Below are positions 46,957-47,726 of a stretch of DNA of 47,726 nucleotides, piece by piece. The notes below the pieces were generated by a model. It was not told the DNA's origin and searched no databases. It was given only the letters and a program-made list of their open reading frames with translations. The stretch lies in the NCBI GenBank assembly GCA_016932995.1, contig JAFGBU010000021.1, positions 1-47,726 on the forward strand. The letters run 5' to 3'. The stretch is from Desulfovibrionaceae bacterium. Lineage in GTDB: Bacteria; Desulfobacterota; Desulfovibrionia; Desulfovibrionales; Desulfovibrionaceae. Positions within the stretch are counted from its first letter, which is position 1, and the number at the start of each line of letters is the position of its first letter. Made by a program: the position numbers and the translations under genes.

Positions 46957-47235
46957 CTACCTTGAAACAAGGTCGTTCTCTGGCTCACGCGAATCATGGA
47001 CCGCGGCCTCAAGCTGGATGAAGGATTCTTTGACCTGGCTCGATGGATCGTTGGTGAGCATTTTCACGAGGTCTTCCTCGCTGTCGGGCGCTGGTTCCAT
47101 GCCAACGGGAATCGTCTGCAAAGCGGGCGTCTCAAGCGTTTGCGCAAGGGGTTTGAAGAGGTCCGTGATGATGCCTCGGGTTGCCCCAATTTTTTGGGGC
47201 ACGGTCATGGAAAACGCGTCGCCGTCCCTCGCCAA
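46957..47235 (-). CDS. Small ORF of unknown function, possibly eroded
   Basis: The frame gives 92 residues from TTG, or 83 from the ATG at 47208. It reads MTVPQKIGATRGIITDLFKP and ends with EPENDLVSR. It is hydrophilic, without membrane helix or a motif I recognise. A weak GAGGG site lies upstream. As it sits next to the WYL remnant in a decayed region, it may be another gene fragment. Confidence 0.25.
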   Translation of the reverse strand: MARDGDAFSMTVPQKIGATRGIITDLFKPLAQTLETPALQTIPVGMEPAPDSEEDLVKMLTNDPSSQVKESFIQLEAAVHDSREPENDLVSR

Positions 47236-47404
47236 GACGGTTTACTAGACCGGCTATGAACTTCTCGTCCGAAGGGGAAAAAAGCCCATTACCGCACCTC
47301 GCGGTGGCCATTGTCTGCTGGAGAAAAGTCGCTGCTGTTTACGGATAGGCTCTAACTTGGCAGCCGCTTGCTAACCCAGGGGCAGCACAGGCGGTAGACC
47401 ATTA
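47236..47404. other. Intergenic stretch without recognisable genes
   Basis: These bases carry no convincing frame, repeat or hairpin on either strand. Composition is closer to balanced than in the rest of the window. The palindromes and the promoter that follow at 47405-47521 form the upstream control region of gvpA. Confidence 0.5.
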
Positions 47405-47432
47405 TGGAATCCATTCCATGGAAACGATTCCA
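47405..47432. promoter_or_regulatory. Two adjacent palindromic operator sites upstream of gvpA
   Basis: TGGAATCCATTCCA (47405-47418) and TGGAAACGATTCCA (47419-47432) lie end to end. Each is a 14-base TGGAA-N4-TTCCA palindrome. They are about 75 bases upstream of the candidate -24/-12 promoter, which is a normal place for enhancer sites of NtrC-type activators. Confidence 0.6.
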
Positions 47433-47504
47433 CAGTTCGGCGTTTTCCCTGACTCGTCGCATTAATAACCATCTGAAAAAATACGATATTATTACTCAAG
47501 ACGC

Positions 47505-47521
47505 TTGGCATGCATCTTGAT
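47505..47521 (+). promoter_or_regulatory. Candidate sigma-54 (-24/-12) promoter of gvpA
   Basis: TTGGCATGCATCTTGAT has GG at 47507-47508 and TTGA at 47517-47520. The GG and the -12 dinucleotide are spaced by exactly 10 bases, as in TGGCAC-N5-TTGC. The -12 GC is GA here, which weakens the match. It lies 56 bases before the gvpA ATG. A palindrome AGGCTAGCCT (47533-47542) covers the probable start site. Confidence 0.5.
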
Positions 47522-47576
47522 GTGGGACTGCTAGGCTAGCCTCTTTCCCAACCTATAAACAAGCAGGAGATTACCC

Positions 47577-47726
47577 ATGGCAAAGGTACAGAAGTCCACG
47601 GATTCTTCCAGTCTGGCCGAAGTCGTCGATCGCATCCTCGACAAGGGCATCGTGATCGACGCCTGGGTCAAGGTGTCGCTGGTGGGGATCGAGCTGTTGT
47701 CCGTCGAAGCCCGGGTGGTCATCGCC
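47577..47726 (+). CDS. gvpA: Gas vesicle major structural protein GvpA, 5' part
   Basis: The window ends after 50 codons. The protein starts [20 protein letters not shown] and continues [30 protein letters not shown]. The SSSLAEV[14 protein letters not shown] segment and the VSLVGIELL strand are the hallmarks of GvpA, the small hydrophobic protein that builds the gas vesicle wall. An AGGAG site stands 7 bases before the ATG. The remaining gvp genes should lie beyond the window edge. The upstream region has a sigma-54-like promoter. Confidence 0.95.

Follow-up and report, generated by a model that had tools for sequence, protein, structure and literature searches.

Positions 47405 to 47576 of the window, by which we mean the whole analysed stretch of 47,726 nucleotides, are very likely the control region of a gvpA operon, in which a linked NtrC-type activator acts on two palindromes and a sigma-54 promoter is used, and a dedicated signal system very probably turns flotation on. 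A preliminary description of this DNA had proposed sigma-54-dependent control by an activator of this type, and that overall reading is supported: its computable predictions held, including the sigma-54 gene, for which the genome has one match (PF04552, E 9.1e-61). The motif, its conservation, the promoter geometry, the domain content of the regulator, its linkage and the co-occurrence of regulator and motif are computed results. The region has the following features:

47402..47435, no strand assigned: candidate upstream activator site, two abutting 14-bp palindromes with flanks that match the extended consensus
47505..47521, plus strand: sigma-54 (-24/-12) promoter TTGGCATGCATCTTGAT, kept in relatives; GA instead of GC at -12
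47532, plus strand: predicted transcription start, from promoter geometry (GG at -25/-24)
47533..47542, no strand assigned: second conserved palindrome AGGCTAGCCT (AGGCATGCCT type), at predicted +2 to +11
47565..47569, plus strand: gvpA ribosome binding site AGGAG, from sequence
47577..47726, plus strand: 5' part of gvpA from its ATG at 47577 (PF00741 match); the gene continues on contig C32

The gvp cluster and its integrity

The window is the entire contig C25, which stops within gvpA. Its last 25 bases (C25:47702-47726) equal C32:1-25, and as the two contig ends are the sole occurrences of this 25-mer in the genome, C32 is read as the continuation of C25. The gvp content of C32 comprises a GvpC-like frame, gvpN, gvpF, gvpG, an ArsA-like ATPase, a frame with GvpA-like and GvpK domains and a further GvpA-like gene, followed by a 215-residue protein, an NtrC-type regulator, Hsp20, a CDC48-type ATPase, a GvpL-like stretch, a PAS histidine kinase and a receiver protein. 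The regulator genes, all on C32 (locus L024), therefore sit outside the window. Features of this locus are:

L024:193-861: GvpC-like frame, so called from its position and composition only; no match in Pfam or NCBIfam
L024:990-1652, minus strand: transposase-like gene (DDE_3, HTH_33; IS-like), located within the gvp operon, after the GvpC-like frame and before gvpN
L024:9121-9768: 215-residue protein, without Pfam or NCBIfam match, kept directly ahead of the activator in relatives
L024:9765-11138: activator (NtrC-type regulator)
L024:11167-11691: Hsp20
L024:11679-13838: CDC48-type ATPase
L024:15363-16904: PAS histidine kinase
L024:16911-17336: receiver protein (second receiver)

In loci L059, L065, L066 and L085, the order is 215-residue protein, activator, Hsp20, CDC48, kinase, receiver and gvpA; the present genome has these two blocks in the opposite order. 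Relatives of the kinase and receiver lie directly before gvpA in these four loci, in L064 (Gammaproteobacteria, a short stretch) and on plasmids L138 and L140. At the limit used, no receiver match was found ahead of gvpA in L070, and no kinase or receiver matches in L062 and L063. A DNA search of plasmids gave similarity only from window position 47559 on, which is gvpA itself.

The cluster could also be decaying and unexpressed, with the motif a relic of a horizontally acquired cassette, which we consider unlikely. In the kin sample, gvp genes are limited to 2 of 59 genomes, the present one included, an IS-like gene lies in the operon, the two operons are ordered unlike those of relatives, and the activator frame stops directly after the helix-turn-helix (HTH), the orthologues being several residues longer. 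Against decay, both palindromes, the promoter and the HTH are intact, and gvpN, gvpF, gvpG, the GvpA-like/GvpK frame and the further GvpA-like gene are free of stops. Decay would also be compatible with control by the linked activator, with the switch built as described here and idle in this strain. Given an activator frame that stops at the HTH and a transposase-like gene within the gvp operon, function of the switch in this strain may be reduced.

A tandem palindrome ahead of gvpA

The preliminary description had noted TGGAA-N4-TTCCA twice in tandem, and this is exact: palindrome 1, TGGAATCCATTCCA, occupies 47405-47418 and palindrome 2, TGGAAACGATTCCA, 47419-47432, both being perfect and directly abutting. 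In the 2.48-Mb genome the pattern occurs at these two sites only, so that the abutting pair is a single occurrence. By number alone, the reversed control pattern is just as frequent (2 vs 2), and the notable point is therefore the position of the two sites, side by side ahead of gvpA. A wider regulon in the same genome was considered and rejected, as the total for the relaxed pattern KGGAA-N4-TTCCM is below that of its reversed control (6 vs 14); its further places are four (C1, C5, C32:29954 and C44).

Conservation was analysed in 93 distinct regions upstream of gvpA, drawn from genome contigs (55 loci), from the phylum of the window, with gvp genes in 36 of its 395 sampled genomes (the present one included), and from plasmids. 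These were divided into 36 regions with a gvpA at least 90% identical to that of the window and 57 with a less similar gvpA, and all inverted repeats with 4-base arms and spacers of 0-14 bases were ranked against 30 shuffle sets. GGAA-N4-TTCC is the top dyad in the first group, present in 18 of the 36 regions compared with a shuffle mean of 0.4 (maximum 2), and no dyad rose above 5 in any of the 30 shuffle sets. The full motif TGGAA-N4-TTCCA, set a priori, is found in 11 of the 36, the window counted, and in none of the shuffles. Among the 57 regions with less similar gvpA, three (L070, L143 and L161) have the palindrome, compared with 0.03 in shuffles. The preliminary description had suggested a search for the palindromes before other gvp genes; palindrome and -24/-12 promoter together precede gvpA in relatives.

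The consensus of 24 aligned sites is tATGGAAtnnaTTCCATAG. A position weight matrix (PWM) was derived from sites that it later scored, and the scores of the window palindromes, 26.9 and 25.1, come from a matrix built with these sites included; the dyad ranking and the genome count of TGGAA-N4-TTCCA are independent of it. Among the 47 genome-contig loci, the best scores within 600 bases of gvpA are at least 15.1 in eleven and at most 8.4 in the other 36. Beyond the phylum of the window, the exact core lies ahead of gvpA in L060, L064 and L139 (Gammaproteobacteria), L070 (Planctomycetota) and L080 (Myxococcota). In all, four phyla show the operator, two of them together with an activator orthologue.

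Two loci show features of their own. Locus L139 (Thiodictyon plasmid pTs485) carries a perfect extended palindrome 330 bases upstream of gvpA, where the annotation shows neither an activator nor another gvp gene within 16 kb. Locus L055 has a variant palindrome, TATGGCA-N4-TGCCATA, about 217 bases before gvpA and adjoined by a type-B regulator; it is perhaps a changed operator matched to a changed regulator. A motif of their own was also sought for the type-B regulators and not accepted, as a convincing variant (TGGCA-N4-TGCCA) appeared in L055 only and none was trusted in the others.

Promoter geometry and the predicted start

Together with the palindromes, the preliminary description had placed a promoter about 75 bases downstream with correct GG-to-(C/A) spacing. 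TTGGCATGCATCTTGAT begins 72 bases past the second palindrome, and its GG (47507-47508) and GA (47519-47520) have the correct -24/-12 spacing. The -12 dinucleotide, GA in the window, is GG or GA in the five closest relatives and GC in 17 of the 24 palindrome-bearing regions.

As a promoter test, the consensus scan alone was dropped: 13 two-mismatch -24/-12 matches were found in the window where 19.9 are expected, so that a single match is unremarkable. Since the match is no rarer than chance, conservation and spacing were used as the promoter criteria. The distance from the centre of the first palindrome to the promoter GG is 95.5-96.5 bases in the window and in L045, L141, L047, L153 and L046, and the upstream DNA of these five relatives is only 47-50% identical to that of the window. 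In the six-sequence footprint GGAA, ATTCCAT, TGGCA and TCTTG are invariant or nearly so, the latter two fully invariant. Use of a sigma-70-type or other promoter by gvpA, with an accidental match to -24/-12, would fit the commonness of two-mismatch matches and the GA at -12; it is highly improbable given the invariance of TGGCA and TCTTG and their fixed spacing across diverged relatives, and a simple scan of 47000-47726 revealed no sigma-70-like promoter.

Other loci have 86 to 320 bases between the palindrome and the best -24/-12 match within the last 150 bases; enhancers tolerate variable distances to their promoters. The best -24/-12 score near gvpA has a median of 18.7 in regions with the palindrome (n=24) and 15.0 in those without (n=63; Mann-Whitney p=6e-7), in a search limited to 150 to 30 bases before gvpA. 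L070 has a better match at -275, outside this range, and L161 (site score 28.0) is counted in the group without palindrome through the identity filter. Six downstream tandem gvpA copies were omitted by hand from the promoter-score and distance comparisons and the start-palindrome counts, and kept in the dyad ranking. For palindrome-promoter distances below 160 bp, helical phasing is suggestive only (R 0.53, p ~0.06, 10 distinct distances).

The abutting arrangement recurs. Around 30 distinct strong sites, a second site lies exactly 14 bases off in 8 of 60 flanks, whereas the other 62 offsets have a mean of 0.06 second sites per offset. These pairs come from six loci, namely the window, L120, L121, L152, L047 and L161, and L142 has a further exact pair just below the score limit. 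In L120 and L121 the abutting pair precedes the activator operon, not gvpA.

A second conserved palindrome, of the type AGGC(AT or TA)GCCT, marks the predicted start. In 13 of the 30 first-copy regions whose gvpA is at least 90% identical (the window, L045, L144, L046, L153, L147, L146, L145, L151, L142, L170, L148 and L066), a palindrome of this type starts 11-14 bases beyond the -12 box, in one case with an additional base at its centre. GGCA/TGCC with no spacer also ranks among the top dyads (12 of 36 regions). The element is possibly a repressor operator. A reading as RNA structure was set aside, as no common structure was evident by eye in folds of 20 predicted leaders. Individual leaders have features of other kinds: that of gvpA in L055 (genome G239) contains a perfect strong hairpin, GGAGGCATGTCT-TACC-AGACATGCCTCC, and five in Bacteroidota (L088, L089, L090, L092 and L097) have GAGGTAA followed by CCGTCCCTC in common.

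The activator and its association with the operator

The nearby activator gene anticipated in the preliminary description is present in the gvp cluster and is of the NtrC type. Its product has three domains over cut-off, a receiver (PF00072), a sigma-54 AAA+ domain (PF00158) and a Fis-type HTH (PF02954), and its translation shows the GAFTGA loop and the receiver Asp. The sigma-54 activator domain has 19 matches in the genome, two of them weak, and the best-scoring paralogues of the activator there have 39-40% identity (317 bits). By a strict limit, orthologues (50-66% identity) are present in 15 other gvp genomes of the phylum, out of 36 searched. In ten of these the orthologue is on the gvp-bearing contig and in five (G355, G064, G411, G335 and G053) on another, so that linkage to gvp genes is shown for the ten only. 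Five more gvp loci have an orthologue on the same contig (L059, L062, L063, L066 and L070; 442-527 bits). In a tree of 64 sequences, from which three rows (L055, L138 and L185) were omitted, a branch with support 84 (98 for 19 of the 21) sets the 21 orthologues apart from the paralogues of the present genome. The recognition helix is IDYKT or VDYKT in all 21 orthologues and also in most type-B regulators, and the helix alone therefore cannot explain specificity. Type-B regulators have 42-45% identity to the activator and are usually encoded right beside gvpA, and the site is found with only two of them.

The proposal of NtrC-type control gains support from co-occurrence, since presence of the site tracks the activator orthologue, with exceptions both ways. 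Of 20 genomes with an orthologue, 15 have a site (score of at least 14, no more than 600 bases from gvpA), compared with 3 of the 14 gvp genomes that lack one (Fisher p=0.0045); for the phylum of the window alone the figures are 12 of 15 and 3 of 14 (p=0.0028). The genomes were grouped by hand, and of 37 gvp genomes of the phylum (36 plus G053) eight were omitted for having no usable gvpA upstream region (G181, G207, G273, G277, G288, G343, G355 and G375). Five of the 20 have an orthologue and no recognisable site (G271, G357, G053, L062 and L063), L062 and L063 being Acidobacteriota. The three with a site and no orthologue are G248, whose best regulators have 37-42% identity and where the orthologue is perhaps missing through assembly gaps, and G272 and G147, which have type-B regulators (42-43%).

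Eight of the 21 activator loci (L059, L062, L063, L066, L120, L121, L125 and L126) have a site some 670-780 bases upstream of the activator, close to where its operon begins, and none of the three best sigma-54 matches falls between site and activator. This position suggests autoregulation or a long leader, and autoregulation is the likely role of the site by the activator operon. Several of these eight loci have sigma-54-like sites further upstream. Weaker sites occur elsewhere in L116 and L124, and in the present genome no motif was found before the activator operon.

These data bear on a different assignment, which keeps the sigma-54-dependent promoter but gives the palindromes, as operator, to a regulator other than the linked activator, such as a repressor, and has the activator work at other places. 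The 3 of 14 genomes that have the site without a type-A orthologue would suit it, as would the site before solitary gammaproteobacterial gvpA genes (in L060 and L069 no activator or other gvp relative was found in the stretch around gvpA) and the activator-operon site with no best sigma-54 match behind it, which suits a repressor. However, the last is equally expected from autoregulation by the same protein, the palindromes lie upstream at enhancer distance and not over the promoter, and the site tracks the activator orthologue, so that we hold this assignment to be improbable. Binding of the linked activator to the palindromes is the reading followed below.

Relation to known systems

Control of gas vesicle genes by sigma-54 and an NtrC-type protein, which the preliminary description had presented as known from other bacteria, is indeed known from Serratia ATCC 39006. 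According to the available text of the published accounts, its gvp cluster encodes the NtrC-like GvrA and the start mapped for gvpA1 is preceded by a sigma-54 site (PMC4982088); when rpoN carries an insertion, gas vesicles are lost and gvpA1 transcription falls (PMC11778176). As in that text, the present system has an NtrC-family regulator in the gvp cluster (here across the C25/C32 overlap), a sigma-54 site before gvpA, one operon starting with gvpA and one with the regulator. In contrast to the Serratia accounts, in whose available text no activator binding site is stated, there is here a conserved palindromic operator; GvrA was compared by its description. A 2022 review mentions gvrA-C, with no binding site given in the text available (PMC9501494), and the gas vesicle genes of Cereibacter are reported, in the part of the source covered, to be under CtrA, a different route (PMC11999139). 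The operator was not described in the literature searched, which covered few subscription papers and included the available text of PMC5601083 and PMC4046663. Given the Serratia precedent, this type of control is known, whereas the operator and its pairing with the activator look new within the literature searched.

The activator resembles NtrC, AtoC and ZraR-type proteins in combining receiver, sigma-54 AAA+ and Fis-type HTH domains, and its best solved relatives are the NtrC-family proteins 1ny5 and 4l4u. Unlike NtrC and AtoC, it stays under the cut-off of every NCBIfam model among the matches listed (25 of 120): it reaches 401.9 bits against the NtrC equivalog TIGR01818 (cut-off 558.6), and is hence not NtrC proper, and 410.5 of 714 against the AtoC model. 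Unlike NtrC, AtoC and ZraR, it groups with other regulators from gvp genomes. The plasmid gvp clusters of the methanotrophs Methylocella tundrae and Methylosinus sp. C49 likewise have a sigma-54 regulator, a GvpF-type gene, a kinase and a receiver ahead of gvpA, but their regulators are only 40-43% identical and no good palindrome was found before gvpA.

Proposed mechanism and implications

From the sequence comparisons we infer the binding of the activator to the palindromes, the phosphorelay, the start site and the signal. In the proposed model, the PAS histidine kinase of the gvp cluster would phosphorylate the NtrC-family regulator upon a signal, which, judging from the PAS matches, may be cytoplasmic, perhaps a redox or energy cue. 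The regulator would occupy the two abutting TGGAA-N4-TTCCA palindromes as neighbouring dimers, with a DNA loop of about 80-95 bp bridging palindromes and promoter; its AAA+ ring would assemble and open sigma-54 RNA polymerase at TTGGCATGCATCTTGAT, and the gvp transcript would begin near 47532.

More tentatively, a self-contained switch composed of PAS kinase, receiver, gas-vesicle enhancer-binding protein and operator tATGGAAtnnaTTCCATAG might have moved with the gvp genes between phyla, abutting 14-bp operators often setting the geometry of the oligomer. The switch might also govern its own operon through that operator, with a second factor reading the AGGCATGCCT palindrome at the transcription start, which would give two-input control.

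The analysis turns a hunch from sequence into a testable operator-activator pair common to gas-vesicle bacteria of more than one phylum, and the motif offers a means of recognising gvp operons under this control. The promoter is a candidate for inducible gas-vesicle expression, for instance as an ultrasound reporter. For the bacteria themselves, the prediction is that buoyancy would be switched by a two-component signal, and what the PAS kinase senses is now a direct question.
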